From positions 1 through 37,237 of the IMG/VR virus record IMGVR_UViG_3300044451_000459: 37,237 nucleotides of DNA; one strand, 5' to 3'. This DNA is from a virus. Of this stretch, positions 27,973 through 37,237 are shown one piece after another; positions within the stretch are counted from its first letter, which is position 1, and every line of letters begins with the position of its first letter. The notes beneath the pieces were generated by a model. That model did no database searches. It saw nothing but the letters and a program-made list of their open reading frames with translations, and was not told the DNA's origin. A program made the translations under genes and the position numbers.

Positions 27973-28013
27973 TTCTACTTAATGCAACTTTAGCCACACA
28001 AGGGAAACTAAAT

Positions 28014-28220
28014 ATGCACCTAAAAACTGCCGAAGAAGTAAAACAGGAATTTATCCAACAAGGCATTCCTGTTTCATCATGGGCTGAAAGTAAAGGTTTC
28101 ACCCCACAAGAAGTTTACAAAGTACTCAACGGTCAATCTAAAGGAAACTTTGGACGTGCCCATAAGATTGCCGTTGCCCTCGGCCTAAAACCAGAACCAA
28201 AACAGAAAGTCACTGTTTAG
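28014..28220 (+). CDS. Ner/Cro-like DNA-binding protein
   Basis: A 68-residue helix-turn-helix protein (VSSWAESKGFTPQEVYKVLNGQ), first gene of the rightward early operon, opposite the repressor. This is the place of Mu ner, which turns down early transcription. AAGGGA lies 9 nt upstream of the ATG. Its stop codon lies within the operator-like dyad O3. Confidence 0.85.
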   Translation: MHLKTAEEVKQEFIQQGIPVSSWAESKGFTPQEVYKVLNGQSKGNFGRAHKIAVALGLKPEPKQKVTV

Positions 28221-28224
28221 TTAC
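28209..28224. promoter_or_regulatory. Operator-like dyad O3 at end of ner
   Basis: GTCACTG-TT-TAGTTAC, a near-perfect match to the O1/O2 form, spanning the ner stop codon. It directly abuts the 10-bp iterons. Confidence 0.6.
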
Positions 28225-28254
28225 TTTGCACATATTCGCACATTTTTGCACACG
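28225..28254. repeat. Three tandem 10-bp iterons
   Basis: TTTGCACATA, TTCGCACATT and TTTGCACACG lie head to tail, with GCACA at exact 10-bp steps (28228, 28238, 28248), so on one face of the helix. They lie between O3 and the next gene. Protein-binding iterons are likely; the ligand is unknown. Confidence 0.7.
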
Positions 28255-28263
28255 GGGAAAGAG

Positions 28264-28431
28264 ATGAGACAAAAACAATCAGGAAGTATTGCATTTCGTT
28301 ACCTAATCATCTTCGTAACGACATTCGGTTATGTCCAATGGTTCTTCGCTGAACAGGATAACGAAGAGCTTAAACAGCAACTAATGTCAATCAAGTTCAC
28401 TCAAGGAGATGGGCATGAGTTCAACAAATAA
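28264..28431 (+). CDS. Small membrane protein
   Basis: A 55-residue protein of unknown function with one membrane helix (FRYLIIFVTTFGYVQWFF, residues ~10-27) and a charged C-terminal tail. ATG 28264 is chosen over an upstream TTG because GGGGAAAGAG sits just before it. Its end overlaps the next gene. Confidence 0.65.
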   Translation: MRQKQSGSIAFRYLIIFVTTFGYVQWFFAEQDNEELKQQLMSIKFTQGDGHEFNK

Positions 28432-28711
28432 ATCAGCCGTGAAAGTTCTACGCGTTTTATTCGCGCTGCGAGGTCATTACGTTTTCGGCCTTAGCAATAA
28501 ACAGCTTTCTGAAAGCTTAAAAGAAACACCTGTATTTATTACTCGCGCACTCCAAACCCTTGAAGCGGATGGTTGGGTAGAAAAACGTGACAACGGCAAC
28601 TATGCCCCAAGTGTGAAGACGGTCAAATTTGCAACAGCGTGTAAAGAAGAATGTGACCGTGTTCAAGCACGTATTAATGAATACAACCAACGTCTTAACA
28701 CACAGTTTTAA
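28415..28711 (+). CDS. Winged-helix DNA-binding protein
   Basis: A 98-residue protein with a winged-helix pattern: SNKQLSESLKETPVFITRALQTLEADGWVEKRDNGNY (recognition helix and wing). This is the MarR/IclR-like arrangement seen in small phage regulators just before the transposase genes. ATG 28415 is preferred, 6 nt after AAGGAG; an ATG at 28409 overlaps the ribosome binding site. A role in early transcription control is inferred. Confidence 0.75.
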   Translation: MSSTNKSAVKVLRVLFALRGHYVFGLSNKQLSESLKETPVFITRALQTLEADGWVEKRDNGNYAPSVKTVKFATACKEECDRVQARINEYNQRLNTQF

Positions 28712-28723
28712 TAAGGGTTCACT

Positions 28724-29608
28724 ATGAGTAATGAAGTAATCACTGAAGTTGAAATTCAAAATCATACAAAGGCTGTTGCAGGTTTAGCAACGCAACTTGG
28801 TTATGAAGGGGCTTTAACTGTAGGGGCATTGGAAGATGAAATTCGCTTTTTCCAACAACGTACTGTTGAAGCAGTGATGGAGCTTGGCAAGCGCTTATTA
28901 ATCTTAAAAGAAATTACACCGCATGGTGAGTTTAATAAGCGTGTTGAGATGTTGAACTTCACTCCACGCATGGCACAAAAATTCATGTCAGCGGTGTTGA
29001 AATTCTCAAAAACGAATTCGAGTTCGCTTTTGCAGAAAGCTGGAAATCAAACAAAGTTGCTTGAGCTTGTAACGCTAGATGACGATGAAATACAAGTCAT
29101 CGAACAAGGTGGAAGCATTGGTGAGGTTTCATTAGACAGCATTGAAACTATGTCAGTACGCGAATTAAAAGATGAACTTCGCAAAATTAAAGCTGACAAA
29201 GAAGCTGGTGACTTACTCCTCCAAAAGAAAGACCAAAAGATTAATGAACTAGATGCAAAGCTCACAAAGCTTCAGAGTCCAGTTCAAATTAAAAAGCGTG
29301 CTGAATCTGAAGAACAACTAATTGCAGCTAAAGCTTTAGAAGAAGCCAACACCGCATGTTTAACAATGCACAACGACACAGTGCGTTTTAAAAATACGGT
29401 CAACTCAGTTTTAGACACAATCAATGAGCATGGCCTTTACAACATCCAAGAACAACTTGAAGCCCTCGTTATCAGCGCATTTCAACAGATTGCACAAACT
29501 AGTGTTGAGCTAGGAATTCAAATTGATTTTGAAACGATGGTGAACCCAGCATGGTTACCTGCGGATCAAGACGCTGCTGCATTTGATGCAACAAACGTGG
29601 AGCAGTAA
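28724..29608 (+). CDS. DUF3102-like coiled-coil protein
   Basis: A 294-residue protein immediately upstream of the transposase. Residues ~35-100 match the DUF3102 pattern (VEAVMELGKRLLILKEITPHGEF...LNFTPRMAQKFMSAVLKF), a fold thought to bind DNA. A long coiled coil runs over ~145-215. The position before transposase is common in Acinetobacter and Pseudomonas Mu-like phages. AAGGG precedes the ATG. Function unknown; a transposition or partition accessory is possible. Confidence 0.8.
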   Translation: MSNEVITEVEIQNHTKAVAGLATQLGYEGALTVGALEDEIRFFQQRTVEAVMELGKRLLILKEITPHGEFNKRVEMLNFTPRMAQKFMSAVLKFSKTNSSSLLQKAGNQTKLLELVTLDDDEIQVIEQGGSIGEVSLDSIETMSVRELKDELRKIKADKEAGDLLLQKKDQKINELDAKLTKLQSPVQIKKRAESEEQLIAAKALEEANTACLTMHNDTVRFKNTVNSVLDTINEHGLYNIQEQLEALVISAFQQIAQTSVELGIQIDFETMVNPAWLPADQDAAAFDATNVEQ

Positions 29609-29610
29609 TC

Positions 29611-31362
29611 ATGACAAATCCAAACTTAGCAAAACAAGATTATTTGCGTGAGATTGCAGCCAAACTTACTGCTGCTGAGTTTGGTGGAAAAGCTGCGATT
29701 GTAAAAACCGCATGTGACTTTTTAAGTCTTAGCAAACCGCAACTTTACCGTGAACTTGAAAAAGTAGGTTTTAAATCTGAACGTAAACAGCGCTCTGATA
29801 AAGGCAAAACAGTTGTGCCGACTGAAGTCGCAGAAATGATTGGTGGCATGGTGCATGTGGCAACACGCGCCAATGGCAAAAAAACTTTACCTGTGACAAC
29901 GGCACTGGAAATGTTGATTGCAGATGGTAAAGCACCAAAAGTATCAGCAGCAACCGTTGGTCGCATCATGAAACAAAACATGTGCCACCCCAAACAACTT
30001 GCAACACCATCGGCACATACACAGCAAAAATCGTTACACCCAAACCACGTTTGGCAAGTCGATGCGTCTATCTGTGTTTTGTTCTACCTGCCTAAAGGCG
30101 GTATGCAAGTGATGGATGAGAAGAAGTTCTACAAGAACAAGCCAGCCAACGTGAAGAGAATCGAAAATGATCGTGTGATTCGTTATGTCATGACCGATCA
30201 CTTCTCAGGCTCAATTTATGTTGAGTACGTGTACGGAAGTGAAAGCTCTGAAAACTTAATTGAGATTTTCTTAAACGGTATTCAAAAACGCTCTGATAAA
30301 GAACCAATGCACGGTGTTCCAAACATCCTCTACACAGACAAAGGTTGTGCAAACACTAGTGGATTATTCAGGAATTTACTTGAGCGTTTAGATGTAACTT
30401 TCATACCCCATGCAACTGGTAATTCACAAGCAAAAGGCCAAGTTGAAAACGCTCAAAATATTGTTGAAACACAGTTTGAAGGCCGTCTGCGTTTCATGCA
30501 GATCAACAATATCCAAGAGTTAAATGCAAAAGCAGCGGATTGGCGCATGTTTTGGAATGAAACCAAAATTCATAGCCGTACTAAGCGCAGCCGTAATGCA
30601 GTTTGGCAAACGATTAAGCCTGAACAATTACGCTTTGCTCCACCAATGGAATTATGCCGAGAGCTTATCAGCACAGTACCAGTTGAAAAAACAGTTAAAG
30701 CCAATCTTACAGTTAGTCATGCCATTCAAGGCTATGGCTCACAAGACTATGACGTTCGTCATGTTGATGGGGTTTACCCGAAAGCCAAGTTGCAGATTGT
30801 AGTGAATCCATACCGTGCGCCATGCATCGATGTATTAACCAAAGATCAGCACGGCAATGAAGTCATTTTCACATGTGAGCCGTTGCAGGTTGATTGGGTT
30901 GGTTTTGGAAATGATGCAGCTGTAATCGGTGAAGAAATCAAAGCAATGCCACAGAGCGCAATTGATGAAAACCGCAAACGCATCCTCAAGAACGCTTATG
31001 GCGCTGAAACGCTGGAGCAAGTTGATAAAGCAATTGCCAAGAAGAAACCAGCGTATGAAGGTCAGCTCAATGCTATGGCCGATGTTGCTGCGGTTGAAGT
31101 TCCGACCTACATCAAGCGTGCTGGTGAGCAAGTCACTACACCAAAACAACGTCGTGAATCTGCACCAATTTCAGCAGTAGAAGCTGCAAAAGAAATTCGA
31201 GGCTTAATCGGTGACCTGTGGACCACAGATCACTACAAAGCCCTCAAAAAATCTTATCCAGATGGTTTAGTCCCTGCCGATGCAGTACGTGAAATTGCTG
31301 AAGCAATCAAGGCTGAACAAGAACTTCCACAACAACGACCACAACTTCGCGTTGTCGGTTAA
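29611..31362 (+). CDS. A: MuA-like DDE transposase
   Basis: A 583-residue transposase for replicative transposition and integration. N-terminal helix-turn-helix region (LSKPQLYRELEKVGF, ~38-55) and a second DNA-binding part lead to an RNase H-like core with D151 (VWQVDAS), D243 (YTDKG) and E279 (GQVEN). The D243-E279 spacing is 35 residues, the D35E form of retroviral and Tn7 TnsB-like enzymes, shorter than in MuA. The C-terminal part includes a Mu-type beta barrel and a basic tail. GGAG lies 9 nt upstream. It is followed by its ATPase partner. It should act on phage ends, which lie outside this window. Confidence 0.95.
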   Translation: MTNPNLAKQDYLREIAAKLTAAEFGGKAAIVKTACDFLSLSKPQLYRELEKVGFKSERKQRSDKGKTVVPTEVAEMIGGMVHVATRANGKKTLPVTTALEMLIADGKAPKVSAATVGRIMKQNMCHPKQLATPSAHTQQKSLHPNHVWQVDASICVLFYLPKGGMQVMDEKKFYKNKPANVKRIENDRVIRYVMTDHFSGSIYVEYVYGSESSENLIEIFLNGIQKRSDKEPMHGVPNILYTDKGCANTSGLFRNLLERLDVTFIPHATGNSQAKGQVENAQNIVETQFEGRLRFMQINNIQELNAKAADWRMFWNETKIHSRTKRSRNAVWQTIKPEQLRFAPPMELCRELISTVPVEKTVKANLTVSHAIQGYGSQDYDVRHVDGVYPKAKLQIVVNPYRAPCIDVLTKDQHGNEVIFTCEPLQVDWVGFGNDAAVIGEEIKAMPQSAIDENRKRILKNAYGAETLEQVDKAIAKKKPAYEGQLNAMADVAAVEVPTYIKRAGEQVTTPKQRRESAPISAVEAAKEIRGLIGDLWTTDHYKALKKSYPDGLVPADAVREIAEAIKAEQELPQQRPQLRVVG

Positions 31363-31371
31363 GGAGCAACC

Positions 31372-32649
31372 ATGAAACAACAAGACTGCTCGACAAAACT
31401 CAAGGATCTAATTTTAGACAACGGAATTATACAAGCCGACTTAGCTCGTTACGTACAGCTAAGCCCGTCATCGATCAACATCATCATCAACTGCCTGAGA
31501 TGGCCGAAGAAGAATACTGATTTTGTGAAAGCCCGTTTTAGAGAGTTCTTGGTCAACGCAAAGATTAGCGAGTTAGAAATCGACAACGCATTCAACGAAA
31601 TGTTTGATGCACCACCACAAAAAACACTTCTCGAAAGACTTGGCTCTGAAGCAGCAAGTGAAAGAGAACTTGATCACGTGTATCGCGCTTTAGTGGCGCG
31701 TCACGGAAACAAACAAATTAATGAACTTTTAAATGAGGACGAACAAGCCATGTTGCTCGCAAAACAGTCGTTGACTCAACAAGCTAAAAAACATTTTGGC
31801 TTGTTTGATAACCCTTTCACAAATGAAGTTCGTGCAGTTGAAGAACTATTCTTGAATAGCGACATTAACTATGTGCGTCAAGCCTTATATCAGACAGCTA
31901 AACATGGCGGATTCATTGCCATTTCAGGTGAGTCAGGTTCAGGTAAATCGACTTTACGACGCGACCTTCAAGACCGTATTCGTCGTGAAAAATTACCAAT
32001 TTTGGTTATCGAACCATATGTCATTGCAACTGAAGATAATGACATTAAAGGTAAGACGCTTAAATCAAGCCATATTGCTGAAGCAATTATTAATACGGTC
32101 AGTGCTGGTCAAGAAAAACCGCGTATATCTGCCGAGGGTCGTTTTCGCCAAGTCCATACGATTTTAAAAAATTCAAGCGAAGCTGGTTATAGCCATTTAT
32201 TGATAATTGAAGAAGCTCACAGCTTGCCAATCGCTACTCTTAAACAGTTAAAGCGTTTCTTTGAATTAGAAGACGGCTACAAAAAACTTATCGGAATCGT
32301 CTTAATAGGTCAGCCAGAACTTGCAAATAAATTAAGTGAGCGTAACCCCGCAGTTCGTGAGGTTGTACAGCGCTGTGAGAGCGTAACACTTGACCCTTTA
32401 ACAAACACTTCATTAGTTGAGTACTTACAACACCGAGTTAAAAGCGTTGATAAAAAGCTGGAGTCGATCATCACTGAGGACGGCATTCAAGCAATTGTAG
32501 ATCGCCTAACTCATATCAATAGCGCTGGCAAAACCACACGCTCACTTTTATATCCACTTGCCATTGGCAACTTAATTACCAGTTCAATGAACCTCGCAGC
32601 GGAAATTGGCGAGGACGTTATCACACGCGACATCGTGATGGGGGTTTAA
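31372..32649 (+). CDS. B: MuB/TniB-like transposition ATPase
   Basis: A 425-residue AAA+ protein: N-terminal HTH (IIQADLARYVQLSPSSINIII), a linker, then FGLFDNPF (the start shared with ExeA/TniB-type ATPases), Walker A GESGSGKS (186-193) and Walker B LLIIEEAH (276-283), and C-terminal AAA lid. It selects target DNA and activates the transposase. It starts after AAGGAG, 9 bp from the transposase stop. It is larger than Mu MuB (312 residues) because of the N-terminal extension. Confidence 0.93.
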   Translation: MKQQDCSTKLKDLILDNGIIQADLARYVQLSPSSINIIINCLRWPKKNTDFVKARFREFLVNAKISELEIDNAFNEMFDAPPQKTLLERLGSEAASERELDHVYRALVARHGNKQINELLNEDEQAMLLAKQSLTQQAKKHFGLFDNPFTNEVRAVEELFLNSDINYVRQALYQTAKHGGFIAISGESGSGKSTLRRDLQDRIRREKLPILVIEPYVIATEDNDIKGKTLKSSHIAEAIINTVSAGQEKPRISAEGRFRQVHTILKNSSEAGYSHLLIIEEAHSLPIATLKQLKRFFELEDGYKKLIGIVLIGQPELANKLSERNPAVREVVQRCESVTLDPLTNTSLVEYLQHRVKSVDKKLESIITEDGIQAIVDRLTHINSAGKTTRSLLYPLAIGNLITSSMNLAAEIGEDVITRDIVMGV

Positions 32650-32652
32650 GTC

Positions 32653-32751
32653 ATGAATTTTAATTTAAAAAATGTACTCACTGTGAGCTTTACGCTTTGG
32701 GCCTTTTCGGTTGCTGTCGTGATGGCTGTATTAGGAGGTTGCAATGGTTGA
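32653..32751 (+). CDS. Tiny membrane protein (32 aa)
   Basis: MNFNLKNVLTVSF then a hydrophobic helix (LWAFSVAVVMAVLGG) and CNG. A GGGGG stretch lies upstream. It overlaps the next gene by 8 bp, and its own codons hold that gene's AGGAGG. Conserved use is unknown; it may be a coupling leader. Confidence 0.5.
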   Translation: MNFNLKNVLTVSFTLWAFSVAVVMAVLGGCNG

Positions 32752-32956
32752 TTTTGCAGATGTAGCGGAAGGCATTGCTGAAGAACGTATTCAGCAAACC
32801 CTTTCAAATCGACAAACCTTTGATGGTGAAAGTGAACACGAATGTATGAACTGTGGAAACGAAATTCCAGAACGTCGTCGTGCATTGGGCAACGTCAAAC
32901 TTTGCATTGACTGTCAAACCGCAGTTGAAAGTGACTCTAAACACTTCAGGAGATAG
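32744..32956 (+). CDS. DksA/TraR-type zinc-finger protein
   Basis: A 70-residue protein with CMNC (34-37) and CIDC (54-57), a C4 zinc finger of the DksA/TraR family, after an acidic helical N-terminus. Such proteins bind the RNA polymerase secondary channel. Many Mu-like phages carry one. AGGAGG lies 5 nt before the ATG. It may tune host and phage promoters during infection. Confidence 0.85.
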   Translation: MVDFADVAEGIAEERIQQTLSNRQTFDGESEHECMNCGNEIPERRRALGNVKLCIDCQTAVESDSKHFRR

Positions 32957-32958
32957 CT

Positions 32959-33057
32959 ATGACTCTAGAAATTATTAGCGGTTCTTTAATCATGACCATT
33001 CTTGCAGTTGCAGCAGTATGGGCACGAATTAGCGAGGTGATGACATGTCCTATGTAA
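32959..33057 (+). CDS. Tiny membrane protein (32 aa)
   Basis: MTLEIISGSLIMTILAVAAVWARI... is one membrane helix with a short tail. AGGAG lies 7 nt upstream. It overlaps the next gene by 13 bp. No recognised family. Confidence 0.5.
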   Translation: MTLEIISGSLIMTILAVAAVWARISEVMTCPM

Positions 33058-33242
33058 ATAAAAAACGTGCTCAGTTTGCCAAGGATATCGACAAATTAGT
33101 CAGTGGTGATTATGTGCTTGTGCCTAAACAACCTACTGAAGAAATGGAACGAGCTGGTATGGCAGCAGGCGCTGGTTTTTTAGCTAAAGCTGTTTATCAA
33201 GCAATGGTTAAGTCGGCACAAGGAGTGAAAGCAAATGGGTGA
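33045..33242 (+). CDS. Hypothetical protein
   Basis: A 65-residue protein with a basic start (SYVNKKRAQFAKDIDK), a VLVPKQPTEEMERAGMAAG segment that resembles phage proteins with a PTxEM helix, and an Ala-rich end. GAGGTGATG lies upstream. It overlaps genes on both sides. Function unknown. Confidence 0.6.
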   Translation: MSYVNKKRAQFAKDIDKLVSGDYVLVPKQPTEEMERAGMAAGAGFLAKAVYQAMVKSAQGVKANG

Positions 33243-33459
33243 AGCAAAGCGTCGTGGCACTAAAGAAGAACGAGTTGCTCAGGCAATTGAACGTAATGAA
33301 GCAACCAAGGCAGCAGCCAAACAAGCGGTAATTGCAAGACGCCAAAAGCTTCAATCCAAAGGTAAAACAATTGGTCTTAGCCGTCTGCCTTTTGGTTTAG
33401 CAATCGCCTTGGCTGCTGTGGGTTCAAGTGCATTTGAGGTAGGTAAAAATGAAAACTAG
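33235..33459 (+). CDS. Basic small protein with MGEAKRR start
   Basis: A 74-residue, very basic N-terminal half (MGEAKRRGTKEERVAQAI...) followed by a hydrophobic C-terminal segment (LPFGLAIALAAVGSSAF). The MGEAKRR opening is common among small phage and bacterial proteins. AAGGAG lies 9 nt upstream. Function unknown; a peripheral or single-pass membrane protein is possible. Confidence 0.6.
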   Translation: MGEAKRRGTKEERVAQAIERNEATKAAAKQAVIARRQKLQSKGKTIGLSRLPFGLAIALAAVGSSAFEVGKNEN

Positions 33460-34135
33460 ATGCCCAGCATGTGGGGCGACCACTAGCCTAGATGCCCTTT
33501 TAGGGCATGGTGATACCAGCAAAGCTTTTGTTGCAACACTTGCCTTGGTGGGTGATTTAGCTCAGCCACTAGTGAAGTACTTAGGAATGTTTCGCTCACT
33601 AAACCGTGACCTGACATTTGAACGTACAGCAAAGCTTATTGGTGAAATTGCTGAGGATATTAATGCTCAACAAATTAAGCGTGGTCACCACAGTTATCCA
33701 GCTCCTAAAGCAGCATGGATCTGGGCAATCAACACAATGCTTGAACGTCGTGACCAAGGCAAATTGCAACTGCCATTAAAAAACCATGGCTATCTGTATG
33801 AGGTGATCAGTTCATTCAAGCCAGAAAATGCACCAGCACCAACAGAACGCCGAGCAGCTGCTGCACCACGAGCGAAAACTGAAGAAGAACGTGCTGCTGA
33901 ACAAGCTGAACATGAACGTCAAAAGCATACACGCCCAAATCTAAGCGTTACCGAAATGCTTGGCTTTACACAAATGAATAAGAAACAGCCTGAGCGCGGG
34001 CTGAAGAACATCCCCAAGGAACAACTTATGGCGCATGTCGCTCAGAACAAGCAGCTAAATGAATCTTTAGAACAGTGTTACCAACGCCTCAAGGCTGCGG
34101 AAATTGAATCAGAACAAGGAGCTACACATGAATAA
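33449..34135 (+). CDS. Hypothetical phage protein with N-terminal CPAC motif
   Basis: A 228-residue protein. The N-terminal CPACGATTSLDALLGH looks like half of a zinc ribbon, and occurs in phage early proteins of unknown role. The middle is helical and aromatic (WIWAINTMLERR). An Ala/Glu/Arg-rich linker and a helical C-terminus follow. Its start overlaps the previous stop. A link to replication or to transposition is possible from position only. Confidence 0.65.
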   Translation: MKTRCPACGATTSLDALLGHGDTSKAFVATLALVGDLAQPLVKYLGMFRSLNRDLTFERTAKLIGEIAEDINAQQIKRGHHSYPAPKAAWIWAINTMLERRDQGKLQLPLKNHGYLYEVISSFKPENAPAPTERRAAAAPRAKTEEERAAEQAEHERQKHTRPNLSVTEMLGFTQMNKKQPERGLKNIPKEQLMAHVAQNKQLNESLEQCYQRLKAAEIESEQGATHE

Positions 34136-34745
34136 GCCTATTACAGAAGGTTATTGGGAAAACGCTTCAGGTGCATTTGTACCAGAAGCCAATGTCAAAG
34201 AAATTGACAAATTGCGTGATCAAACAGTTCGCAAACTTCATGAGAAAGCAAAAGAAATCCATGACCTTTTAGCGGAGTTCAAGGTTGAAGGCTTTGCTGA
34301 TATTGCCAGCTTTATCCAAATTTCTACCGACCAATACGGTGCAAAAGTTGGCGGTAATAAAGGCAACGTAACGCTCATGAGCTATGACGGACGCTTAAAA
34401 ATCCAACGCAATATTGCGGAAAACATCAGCTTTGATGAACGTTTGCAAGCTGCAAAACAACTCATTGATGAGTGCCTTGAAGAATGGACTGAAGGCAGCC
34501 GTGACGAAATCAAGGTCATCATTAATAACGCATTCCACGTAGACAAAAAGGGAGACATCAGCACAACCAAAGTACTTGGATTAAAACGCATTGAAATCAA
34601 CCACCCGAAATGGAAGCAAGCAATGCAGGCCATTTCAGACAGCATCAACATTATTGGCAGTAAAGCCTACTTACGTTTTTACACCCGCGATGACGCAACT
34701 GGTGGTTACTTACCGCTATCTCTAGACATCGCATCTATTTCTTAA
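34128..34745 (+). CDS. DUF3164 family protein
   Basis: A 205-residue protein of the DUF3164 family common in Mu-like early regions. It has the typical opening ([25 protein letters not shown]), the [10 protein letters not shown] segment and a C-terminal [24 protein letters not shown] 34128 has AAGGAG 6 nt upstream. An ATG at 34104 would lie deep in the previous gene. Function unknown. Confidence 0.85.
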
Positions 34746-34762
34746 AACAGGAACTTTTAAAC

Positions 34763-35035
34763 ATGAAAAAAACTGACTTAATCGCAAACATCGCAATGGA
34801 CGCTAATTTAACTAAATCACAGGCAACAGCTGCACTACAAGCAGTGGAAGATGCAATCGTTGCTGCTTTAGCTGAAGGCGGAAGTGTTTCTTGGATTGGC
34901 TTCGGAACTTTTTCCGTAAAAGAACGCGCTGCGCGTACTGGCCGTAATCCAAAAACTGGTGAAGAGCTACAAATTGCAGCGTCAAAAGCACCTTCATTCA
35001 AAGCAGGTAAAGCTCTTAAAGAGGCTGTGAAGTAA
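34763..35035 (+). CDS. Phage-encoded HU-family DNA-bending protein
   Basis: A 90-residue HU protein of full length, with the family signature [18 protein letters not shown] and Pro63 (RNPKTG) that intercalates into DNA. Mu transposition needs host HU to assemble the transpososome and IHF at the enhancer. A phage copy would free this phage from host supply. The ATG is 15 bp past the DUF3164 stop. The stop overlaps the next start (TAATG). Confidence 0.93.
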
Positions 35036-35214
35036 TGGCAACAAAAGTAAATCACTTAGATGCTCTTGAAAAGAAAGGTCTAAAAGTCGTTCGGAAGTTC
35101 AACCTTTGTGGTTATTTCGAGTACCACGTATTGGACAGTAACAATCAAAGAATTGCGCGGGACACGGTTCAACAACGTGCTATCGAAATGGCTTTGAACA
35201 CCCTAATTGCATAA
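35035..35214 (+). CDS. Hypothetical small protein (59 aa)
   Basis: Starts within the HU stop (TAATG). Lys/Leu-rich N-terminus and a strand-rich middle (FNLCGYFEYHVLDSN) followed by a helix. No recognised family. Coupling to HU suggests joint expression. Confidence 0.6.
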   Translation: MATKVNHLDALEKKGLKVVRKFNLCGYFEYHVLDSNNQRIARDTVQQRAIEMALNTLIA

Positions 35215-35225
35215 GCGAGAACAAA

Positions 35226-35435
35226 ATGAAATTTAAAGTTGAAGTAACAAAAACTTTTACGCAAGACCACATTATTGATGCAGATGATGCCAATCATGCA
35301 AGAGAAATCGCATCAGAAATTTCGGAATTTATGGAAGCCAGCCGTAAAACCTTTTTTGAAAGTACATGGCAAGTAACACCAGTAGATCCATCAAATCAAA
35401 CTACATATCAACCTCAACAGAGTTATCTGAAATAA
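35226..35435 (+). CDS. Hypothetical small protein (69 aa)
   Basis: A 69-residue protein with a strand-helix-strand pattern (MKFKVEVTKTFTQDHIID, then ANHAREIASEISEF). GCGAGAACAAA precedes the ATG. Its last codons and stop lie in the 5' strand of the hammerhead stem II, so cleavage of the RNA would leave this gene's 3' end on the upstream fragment. Confidence 0.6.
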   Translation: MKFKVEVTKTFTQDHIIDADDANHAREIASEISEFMEASRKTFFESTWQVTPVDPSNQTTYQPQQSYLK

Positions 35436-35502
35436 GCGAAACACAGGCATTCGTGCCTGTGTCTACTGGATGTCGTGATCCAGTACTGATGAGCAGCGAT
35501 AG
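35423..35502 (+). ncRNA. Hammerhead ribozyme, type II
   Basis: All hammerhead parts are present in order on the + strand. GAA (35438-35440) is G12-A13-A14. Stem III is 9 bp (35441-35449 with 35454-35462) closed by a TTCG loop, and its outermost pair is A15.1-U16.1. C35463 is the cleavage-site C17 in a GUC triplet. Stem I is 8 bp (35464-35471 with 35478-35485) with loop GTCGTG. CTGATGA (35486-35492) is the other core strand. Stem II is the open stem: G93-C37 and C94-G36, an asymmetric internal loop, then TTATC (35423-35427) with GATAG (35498-35502). Predicted self-cleavage falls between 35463 and 35464, in the early polycistronic mRNA between two small genes. The core and two long stems are seen directly; activity is inferred. 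Confidence 0.92.
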
Positions 35503-35516
35503 GGAGAACCATCCAA

Positions 35517-35666
35517 ATGAAAAAATGCACTGTTGGTAACCGCCACAAATGGGAACACATCAAGAATGTTCAATTAACAACACGAACTAGCCGCAGTATT
35601 TCTATCAGCATAAAAGGTTTCTACAAATGTGCTTGTGGGGCTAAAAAATTAGGATACACACAATGA
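35517..35666 (+). CDS. Hypothetical small protein with C-x-C motif (49 aa)
   Basis: MKKCTVGNRHKWEH... basic, Ser/Thr-rich, ending in FYKCACGAKKLGYTQ, which resembles half of a zinc ribbon. GGGAG is 11 nt upstream, in the stretch just 3' of the hammerhead. It is the first gene on the RNA fragment downstream of cleavage. Overlaps the next start by 4 bp. Confidence 0.6.
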   Translation: MKKCTVGNRHKWEHIKNVQLTTRTSRSISISIKGFYKCACGAKKLGYTQ

Positions 35667-35731
35667 TTAAAGTTGAAGATTTAGAAAAGTTACCACCTGA
35701 AGTGGTGGAAAGTTTGGGAGAAGTATCGTGA
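35663..35731 (+). CDS. Tiny protein or leader peptide (22 aa)
   Basis: MIKVEDLEKLPPEVVESLGEVS between two overlaps (ATGA at start, GTGA at end). It carries the GGGAG of the next gene in its codons. It may serve translational coupling, or be a helical micro-protein. Confidence 0.45.
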   Translation: MIKVEDLEKLPPEVVESLGEVS

Positions 35732-36036
35732 GTGAAATCAGACCTTATATACACATGGAATTGTCCCCAGAAGAACAGCAGATTATTTTAGAGCGTCGAG
35801 CTGAAGAAGCCCACATCGCCGCAACTGAAGCTTTTCAAATTAAAGCATTAAATGTTGCAAACCTTTGGATGCAATGGTCTGAGAAAGAAGGATCTGGGCT
35901 AACACTTTCAACATTTCAGTCATCTTATGAATTTAATTATTTAGAAGCTGACTTACCTCTAATGTATGAAGCTGTGAAAAAAATTATGCAGGTAGTTCAT
36001 AGCCTCCAAGTTCCAAGGGAGAAGTCACAATGTTAG
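35728..36036 (+). CDS. Hypothetical protein (102 aa)
   Basis: A GTG start at 35728 with GGGAG upstream. Acidic helical N-terminus (LSPEEQQIILERRAEEAHIAATEAF), aromatic middle (LWMQWSEKEG) and a helical end. No recognised family. Followed by a small membrane protein with overlap. Confidence 0.6.
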   Translation: MSEIRPYIHMELSPEEQQIILERRAEEAHIAATEAFQIKALNVANLWMQWSEKEGSGLTLSTFQSSYEFNYLEADLPLMYEAVKKIMQVVHSLQVPREKSQC

Positions 36037-36236
36037 TACTTGCACTGCTACTTGTCCTTATTATTGGCTTCTACAATTGTTTTAATGAAGCAAAACTTGC
36101 ATGGAAAGCACGAAAAAATACAGGTTTAACAGTTTTTGAACGTCGTTCAAATATTTGTAAAGCTGGCTCATTTCTAACTCTTGCAGTACTTGCCTTAATT
36201 AGCCTTTGCGACACAGCTAAGGGAGTATTTTGGTAA
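36030..36236 (+). CDS. Small two-helix membrane protein
   Basis: A 68-residue protein with hydrophobic segments at residues ~2-15 and ~46-62 around a basic loop (KLAWKARKNTG...FERRSN). Function unknown. The stop overlaps the gemA start (TAATG). Confidence 0.6.
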   Translation: MLVLALLLVLIIGFYNCFNEAKLAWKARKNTGLTVFERRSNICKAGSFLTLAVLALISLCDTAKGVFW

Positions 36237-36676
36237 TGAAATTCAATAAAAAAGCTAATCTGATCAAGCTAATCCATGTAGGAAAAACCAAACTTGGTTT
36301 AGATGATGAGCTTTACCGAGACATTCTTACAAGCACTACTGGTAAAACCAGTTCAAAAGATCTGAACCTAGCACAGCTTGAAGCTGTGCTGGATCGCTTC
36401 AAACAACTTGGCTTTGAAGTTGAATCAAAAAATAAATCAGGTGTTAAGAACTTAGCAAGTGATGCGCAAAGCAAATTGATTCGCCACTTATGGTTGCAAC
36501 TACATGCAGCTGGTCATGTCAAAAACAGCAGTGAAAAAGCTTTAGCAAAATTTGTAGAGAACAAGGTTGGTGTGAGTGCATTGCAATTTATGAGCAGCCA
36601 TCACGCAGACATGATCATTACTCACTTACGCCAATGGTGCAAACGTTGCGGCATTGAAAGAACAATAAGAAAGTAA
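36236..36676 (+). CDS. gemA: GemA-like regulatory protein (Mu gp16, DUF1018)
   Basis: A 146-residue GemA/DUF1018 protein with the family opening (LIKLIHVGKTKLGLDDELYRDILTSTTGK), the LEAVLDRFKQLGFE helix and a C-terminal helix around LRHLWLQLH-type residues (IRHLWLQLHAAGHV). In Mu, GemA modulates host gene expression and precedes mor, as here. ATG 36236 overlaps the previous stop, with GGGAG 10 nt upstream. An in-frame TTG six bases earlier is less likely. Confidence 0.92.
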   Translation: MKFNKKANLIKLIHVGKTKLGLDDELYRDILTSTTGKTSSKDLNLAQLEAVLDRFKQLGFEVESKNKSGVKNLASDAQSKLIRHLWLQLHAAGHVKNSSEKALAKFVENKVGVSALQFMSSHHADMIITHLRQWCKRCGIERTIRK

Positions 36677-36705
36677 AAACCCCAGTGCGCCAACACTGAG
36701 GTTTT
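36676..36705. terminator. Bidirectional terminator between gemA and mor
   Basis: A 12-nt stem (36676-36687 with 36694-36705) around CGCCAA, overlapping the last base of the gemA stop. Rightward it has one C-A mismatch, then TTTTAAATT. Leftward the mismatch becomes G-U and the stem is followed by five U, so the leftward form is the better terminator. Confidence 0.7.
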
Positions 36706-36787
36706 AAATTCCACCCACCGACGAAAGTAAGAGGAGATAAATCATAAGACTGCTAAATCTTAACATGGGATAACAGCGGGAGCAATT

Positions 36788-37237
36788 ATGGTTTATCGTC
36801 CTCACATCACTGATGCACAACAATTATTTTCTGATGAAGAACTCATTGCACTTATGCCAAAAAACTTTGCATTTGTGGCGAAGCTTATCGGCATAAAACC
36901 AGCTTTGAGTCTAATTGAGAGCTATGGCGGCATCCTAGTTTTTGTACCCCACAAACACGCGCTAGGCATTCATCATGAGCTATCACAGATCATCGGTTAT
37001 TCAAAGCTACAGCTGCTATCAGAGCATTTAGGGAACAATTCAATAGAAGTGCCTATGGCGACAACAATCACGATTGCAATGCGTAATAGAACCATCCGTG
37101 AAATGGCTGCAAGGAAAGAAAGCCGCTCTAAAATCGCCCGTAAATTTGGCGTGACTATCAGAACAATCCGCAGTATCGTAAATGGCGAAGAAAAGCTTAA
37201 ATTCCATTTAGACCAGAATCTGGATTTATTCGAATAA
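36788..37237 (+). CDS. mor: Mor-family transcription activator
   Basis: A 149-residue Mor/C-family activator. Its N-terminal dimerisation part (DEELIALMPKNFAFVAKLIGIKPALSLIESYGG) is followed by the typical VPMATTITIAMRNRTIREMA segment and a C-terminal helix-turn-helix (RSKIARKFGVTIRTIRSIVNG). Mu Mor turns on middle transcription, and C turns on late genes; only one family member is visible here, so it may do both. GGGAG is 5 nt before the ATG. An 82-nt gap with the terminator at its start separates it from gemA. The last base of the window is its stop codon. Confidence 0.95.
   Translation: MVYRPHITDAQQLFSDEELIALMPKNFAFVAKLIGIKPALSLIESYGGILVFVPHKHALGIHHELSQIIGYSKLQLLSEHLGNNSIEVPMATTITIAMRNRTIREMAARKESRSKIARKFGVTIRTIRSIVNGEEKLKFHLDQNLDLFE

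Follow-up and report, generated by a model that had tools for sequence, protein, structure and literature searches.

Does the early operon of a Mu-like phage carry a complete hammerhead ribozyme at a junction between two of its genes, and what would such an RNA do there? The question is raised by the viral record IMGVR_UViG_3300044451_000459 of IMG/VR, analysed here over its whole length of 37,237 nucleotides (the window). The early operon is of the Mu-like kind, with transposase A/B, HU, GemA, and Mor all on the plus strand. The minus strand carries an S24 repressor-like gene, a GH108 endolysin-type gene, a Mu-type portal, a gpT-type major head protein, and tail genes. Late genes (1-28000) run leftward and early genes (28400-37237) rightward, with GemA and Mor at the right end of the record. 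This order is unlike that of Mu, and many relatives also have GemA near a contig end. The named hosts of the closest GemA relatives are Acinetobacter.

The Rfam model RF02276 (Hammerhead_II) matches the plus strand at 58.5 bits, above its gathering cut-off of 37, with an E value of 9.2e-10. The match is full length and comprises model positions 1-66. The catalytic core is complete and contains G12-A13-A14, C3-U4-G5-A6-N7-G8-A9, A15.1-U16.1, and H17. Stems I and III are closed by loops and stem II is open toward both ends, which is the type II permutation. The shuffle z-score of the fold is -3.1. An isolated secondary-structure prediction, made without the pseudoknot, slightly favours a fold that breaks stem II (-25.9 vs -24.7 kcal/mol). 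The model match bears out the original prediction: the early operon of this Mu-like phage does contain a complete hammerhead of type II. The anatomy agrees with that prediction on the GC/GC stem II, the 9-bp stem III with its UUCG loop, the 8-bp stem I, the CUGAUGA strand, and the cut position. Its motif start at 35423 does not hold, as the RF02276 motif begins at 35434. The parts of the ribozyme and the genes around it are collected in the table.

Features of the ribozyme locus and its surroundings in the window
Feature	Positions	Strand	Basis or remark
Transposase and AAA partner	29611-32649	+	
DUF3164	34104-34745	+	
HU	34763-35035	+	
Ribozyme-free gene junction TAAGCGAGAACAAAATG	35208-35228	+	One gene upstream; also in six relatives
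Upstream gene, 69 aa, no family match	35226-35435	+	Its TAA (35433-35435) shares two bases with the start of the ribozyme
Complete RF02276 motif (type II hammerhead ribozyme), 69 nt	35434-35502	+	Rfam match, kept in relatives
Stem II, 5′ strand (GC)	35436-35437	+	Pairs with 35493-35494; sequence, pair counts
Core G12-A13-A14	35438-35440	+	Invariant in 36 of 36 distinct Acinetobacter copies
Stem III, 9 bp, UUCG loop	35441-35462	+	100% of cells paired, two double-sided covarying pairs
C17, predicted cleavage C35463/U35464	35463	+	Hammerhead chemistry; C17 invariant in the Acinetobacter set
Stem I, 8 bp, loop GUCGUG	35464-35485	+	99.7% of cells paired, five double-sided covarying pairs
Pseudoknot, loop I half (UCGU)	35473-35476	+	Covariation with the 3′ tail
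Core C3-A9 (CUGAUGA)	35486-35492	+	Only position 7 varies in relatives (U/C/A)
Stem II, 3′ strand (GC)	35493-35494	+	Sequence, pair counts
Pseudoknot, 3′-tail half (GCGA)	35496-35499	+	Pair counts, covariation
Shine-Dalgarno-like GGGAGAA, directly 3′ of the pseudoknot	35502-35508	+	Sequence
Downstream gene, 49 aa	35517-35666	+	Predicted 53-nt leader after cleavage
GemA	36230-36676	+	
Mor	36788 on	+	

The Rfam search finds no second match at gathering thresholds anywhere in the window. In the early region (28000-37237) no other family appears up to E=1, and a second ribozyme or further RNA family there is rejected. The printed stem II of RF02276 pairs model positions 2-58 and 3-57, which sets a G opposite a G, whereas the chemical stem II is 3-58 and 4-57. 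The curated stem II therefore looks shifted by one base.

A type II model search of the window and its relatives, suggested along with the original prediction, matches the window and gives exactly one RF02276 match in 49 of 53 close GemA loci from viral contigs. These matches lie on the same strand as GemA and upstream of it at varying distance. All seven Acinetobacter genome loci reached through GemA have the ribozyme, as do 14 of 149 Acinetobacter genomes. Three of 274 genomes drawn from the class contain it, one being the Acinetobacter centre genome. A plain DNA search with 2 kb against phage records returns HU genes only and no near relatives. Carriage of the window ribozyme on plasmids is rejected, as a search of plasmids gives no match. 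In a distant GemA locus of 33% identity (L055:1736-1810), a hammerhead-like fold below the cut-off has a different stem II and tail.

Position 7 is the one hammerhead core position that tolerates any base. Across the 36 distinct Acinetobacter copies of 69 nt, C, U, and A occur there, and every other core position is invariant. Loss of core positions in close homologues, which the original prediction had named as grounds against itself, is thus not seen in this set. Two loci without a match (L013 and L034) are rejected as losses; in them, DNA matching the late-gene region of the window replaces the early region. The other two loci without a match show that copies can erode. L043 has a degenerate copy, and L044 has at the corresponding junction (2745-2810) no more than a remnant (TAAGCAAAATACAGGC...). 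After this remnant comes TCCCGCCATTTGGCGGGATTTTTTT, a strong hairpin that resembles a terminator and has seven T. The hairpin is taken for an intrinsic terminator, even though the terminator scan made no call there, and 3′-end formation looks as if it had passed from the ribozyme to the terminator. L033 has lost one stem II pair. The ribozyme is not strictly required, because the copy in L043 is degenerate and only a remnant persists in L044.

These three loci make decay conceivable in general. That the window copy is itself decayed or a chance resemblance, and presently inactive, is nevertheless very improbable in view of the invariant core, the covariation, and the full-score model match in nearly all relatives. 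A structural search built from core strings and stem tests points the same way: it finds 237 type II hammerheads in the loci examined and none in the control of reversed DNA (3.3 Mb, both strands).

Across the 36 distinct copies, 99.6% of the cells of the named structure are paired, and 62 cells are changed on both sides. Registers slid by 1-3 columns give 0 to 5 double-sided changes, against 62 in the true register. The 4-bp UCGU/GCGA pseudoknot between loop I and the 3′ tail is complete in 45 of 47 distinct Acinetobacter junctions. In a wider set of 91 ribozymes, de-duplicated so that members differ by at least 6 bases, the pair between loop position 3 and tail position 4 varies and occurs as G-C (67), C-G (16), A-U (4), and U-A (2). 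The search pattern fixed the tail to the third base only, and this pair was free to vary. It is formed in 89 of 91 ribozymes against a shuffle mean of 57 and a maximum of 69, where the shuffles ignore relatedness and relatives are not independent samples. The four pair types occur in unrelated contigs, which makes descent alone an unlikely cause of the pairing, and one viral contig (L080) holds G-C and C-G versions alike.

The original prediction had also proposed five further stem II pairs, with a possible tertiary role. Such an extension (35423-35427 with 35498-35502) is complete in one of the 47 distinct Acinetobacter junctions, the window itself, compared with 45 for the pseudoknot. The extended stem II is therefore rejected as private to IMGVR_UViG_3300044451_000459. 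The conserved closing contact, as judged from these counts, is the pseudoknot between loop I and the 3′ tail. The invariance of the core, together with the covariation of stems and pseudoknot, is a clear sign of selection on the ribozyme RNA.

In the window the ribozyme follows directly on a stop codon between HU and GemA, as originally described, and the TAA even overlaps it. A sigma-70 promoter or plus-strand terminator nearby is rejected as the explanation of the junction, since 35420-35520 contains no such site. A 13-pair inverted repeat at 36676-36705, in the gap between gemA and mor, reads as a terminator of the minus strand. A hammerhead pattern scan of viral contigs gives at least 120 contigs, a sample biased by the exact pattern, and the structural test confirms hammerheads in at least 105 of them. 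Among the 105 confirmed contigs listed, GemA is present in 76, Mor in 64, DUF3164 in 61, and any Mu-like marker in 87. On the strand of the ribozyme, DUF3164 and HU mostly precede it, and GemA and Mor mostly follow it. Distinct junctions, defined by unlike upstream sequence, number 165. In 149 of them, against 9.7% of random sites, an open frame of 50 codons or more is closed by a stop codon 4-21 nt ahead of G12; in 107 of those 149 the stop codon begins at a distance of 4-7 nt. In 126 of the 165, against 14% of random sites, a start codon accompanied by a Shine-Dalgarno-like site follows within 40 nt. The ribozyme therefore fills the space between two genes.

The cultured Pseudomonas transposable phages JBD30, a laboratory model, and MP42 contain the same type II hammerhead family, at 66.2 bits each, and the ribozyme of MP42 is that of JBD30. 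The JBD30 hammerhead (L206, 2971-3042) is unannotated and occupies a 70-nt gap two genes before mor. It lies just upstream of the gene that precedes gemA, so that gemA comes second after the ribozyme. The stop codon of the gene before it overlaps the ribozyme, and a start codon follows about 8 nt after stem II. A 101-nt stretch that holds this ribozyme has matches in 125 phage records, among them D3112, DMS3, and MP22. The JBD30 and MP42 hammerheads share with the window the family, the gemA-proximal junction, and the overlapping upstream stop codon. They differ from it in their G+C-rich stems, a consensus UGG/GCC-type pseudoknot, a closer start codon, and different flanking small genes.

In the Acinetobacter phages, the same ribozyme is bordered by gene families in many combinations, ten on the upstream side and at least eight on the downstream side. 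Two kinds of downstream neighbour each occur with both of the upstream families U0 and U2, so that all four pairings exist across the ribozyme (a four-gamete pattern). The many combinations, including all four pairings, indicate that genes have reassorted across the ribozyme. The ribozyme is also flanked by a short AGCGA repeat. Joining its two ends across this direct repeat would give TAAGCGAGAACAAAATG, the sequence of the ribozyme-free junction one gene upstream. Such a match suggests either a deletion or an empty site of older date. In many phages several hammerhead copies flank single genes.

All of these features would suit a mobile joint, in which a near-identical short sequence lets recombination swap early-operon cassettes and cleavage serves to make insertions harmless by giving them their own mRNA ends. 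As the main explanation this is unlikely. Phage genes often reassort at gene boundaries anyway, and the relatedness of the flanking genes was grouped by simple alignment score only. DNA homology alone also leaves the invariant catalytic positions, the double-sided stem changes, and the compensated pseudoknot unexplained.

The best explanation is instead that a genuine type II hammerhead probably cuts the early polycistronic RNA at the gene junction during transcription and so partitions the early mRNA. That the ribozyme cuts phage mRNA at this junction is in itself very likely, because the motif is kept in nearly all relatives and in the well-studied Pseudomonas phages. The loop-closed stems III and I would fold first. 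The 2-bp stem II and the pseudoknot of loop I with the 3′ tail would then align the core, and the RNA would be cut between 35463 and 35464. A hammerhead cut leaves a 2′,3′-cyclic phosphate on the 5′ side and a 5′-OH on the 3′ side, predicted here at 35463 and 35464, respectively. The upstream mRNA would thus end in a flush stem III hairpin with a cyclic phosphate, and the downstream mRNA would start with the stem I hairpin and a 5′-OH. Structured ends of bacterial mRNAs should slow 3′ exonucleases and 5′-end-dependent RNase E, and both new ends would be expected to resist these activities. With protected ends, the cut would separate the fate of the part from the transposition genes to HU from that of the GemA/Mor side without a terminator. 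The genes gemA and mor would stay transcribed, and the two parts of the early mRNA would no longer be tied to each other in stability and translation. The role in mRNA processing put forward in the original prediction is plausible. Structure, conservation, covariation, and geometry are properties of the sequences, and it is from these that we infer cleavage in the cell, stabilised halves, separated expression, and competition with ribosomes.

This competition follows from the stop-codon overlap and from the ribosome-binding site beside the pseudoknot, as ribosomes there would compete with folding. Cutting would then be expected to precede the occupancy of the junction by ribosomes, or to take its place. 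The same arrangement could serve a regulated switch, in which translation, a host factor, or Mg2+ controls cleavage and the GemA/Mor side differs between lysogeny and lytic growth. In most phages the ribozyme abuts or overlaps the stop codon, with the start site close after the pseudoknot, and in JBD30 the start lies so near stem II that initiation must compete with the pseudoknot. Such a switch is quite unlikely, however, as the ribozyme lacks a ligand-binding domain, its stem III and loop I are uniform and of small size, and the tight placement may simply reflect compact phage genomes. The folding model also predicts near-equal accessibility of the Shine-Dalgarno site in cut and uncut RNA (0.63 and 0.60), so that an unmasking of the ribosome site on cutting is not supported; this near-equality also speaks against the switch.

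Cutting of the early mRNA may be one case of a broader arrangement. It is conceivable, though doubtful, that transposable and other phages use type II hammerheads as a general part of their gene junctions. Such a part would span about 60-70 nt from a stop codon to the next ribosome-binding site, cut each mRNA joint, leave flush hairpins, and act as a seam for the exchange of gene cassettes. The extreme would be L080 (IMGVR_UViG_3300017605_000570), in which ten type II hammerheads stand about 200-390 nt apart on the minus strand at 3.9-6.8 kb. A single ORF fills 87-96% of eight of the nine spaces between them, which means that nearly every gene of the operon is separated by its own ribozyme. 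Neither GemA nor another Mu-like marker is found in the 7 kb examined of this contig. Arrays of 7, 6, and 4 type II hammerheads occur in L059, L157, and L158, with two in L059 only 17 nt apart. Many hammerheads of these arrays have a shifted CAGCC/CTGCC tail after stem II.

A review (PMC6155905) calls the role of hammerheads in bacteria and phages an open question. The relatives described here make it testable, as JBD30 has a ribozyme at the matching junction and D3112, DMS3, and MP22 have a near-identical stretch. Single-base core mutants, the natural degenerate copies, and the ribozyme-free junctions are ready comparisons. The flush hairpins of the type II form, together with the geometry of the junction, also offer a concrete reason why this permutation would suit the partitioning of operons.

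Much of the family is already known. PMC3088659 (Perreault et al. 2011) describes type II hammerheads with a pseudoknot between loop I and the 3′ tail, which is necessary and is rescued by compensatory changes. In that study, 14 of 18 tested hammerheads cleaved in vitro, and clustered hammerheads flank prophage genes. Three tandem arrangements cleave in vitro, tandem phage hammerheads cleave in transcripts of about 2 kb, and one tandem arrangement cleaves in E. coli. According to PMC10085705, which cites earlier comparative genomics, bacterial hammerhead and twister ribozymes are associated most strongly with Mu-like phage genes; the cited work is assumed to cover part of the present observations. 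With the Mu-like association and the prophage clusters thus published, the view that such hammerheads are little described in transposable phages is not sustained. Literature searches for Acinetobacter prophage hammerheads and for hammerheads with gemA gave nothing relevant. Nor does the literature covered here describe the Acinetobacter and DMS3/JBD30 cases, the reassortment, or the geometry of the junctions, although this does not establish that they are new.

The window ribozyme itself adds one more member to the known Hammerhead_II family. It shares with RF02276 the permutation, the core, the 2-bp stem II, the pseudoknot of loop I with the 3′ tail, and the length. Its UCGU/GCGA pseudoknot is a compensated variant of the RF02276 consensus UGGU/GCCA. 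The prophage setting and the location between genes are as in PMC3088659, whose sections consulted here do not describe the stop-codon overlap and the adjacent ribosome site of the window. The neighbourhood of GemA, Mor, HU, and DUF3164 is the same as that of the Mu-like phage hammerheads and twisters in PMC10085705. What is contributed here is the junction geometry, in which the copies fit between genes and the flanks reassort around the ribozyme.
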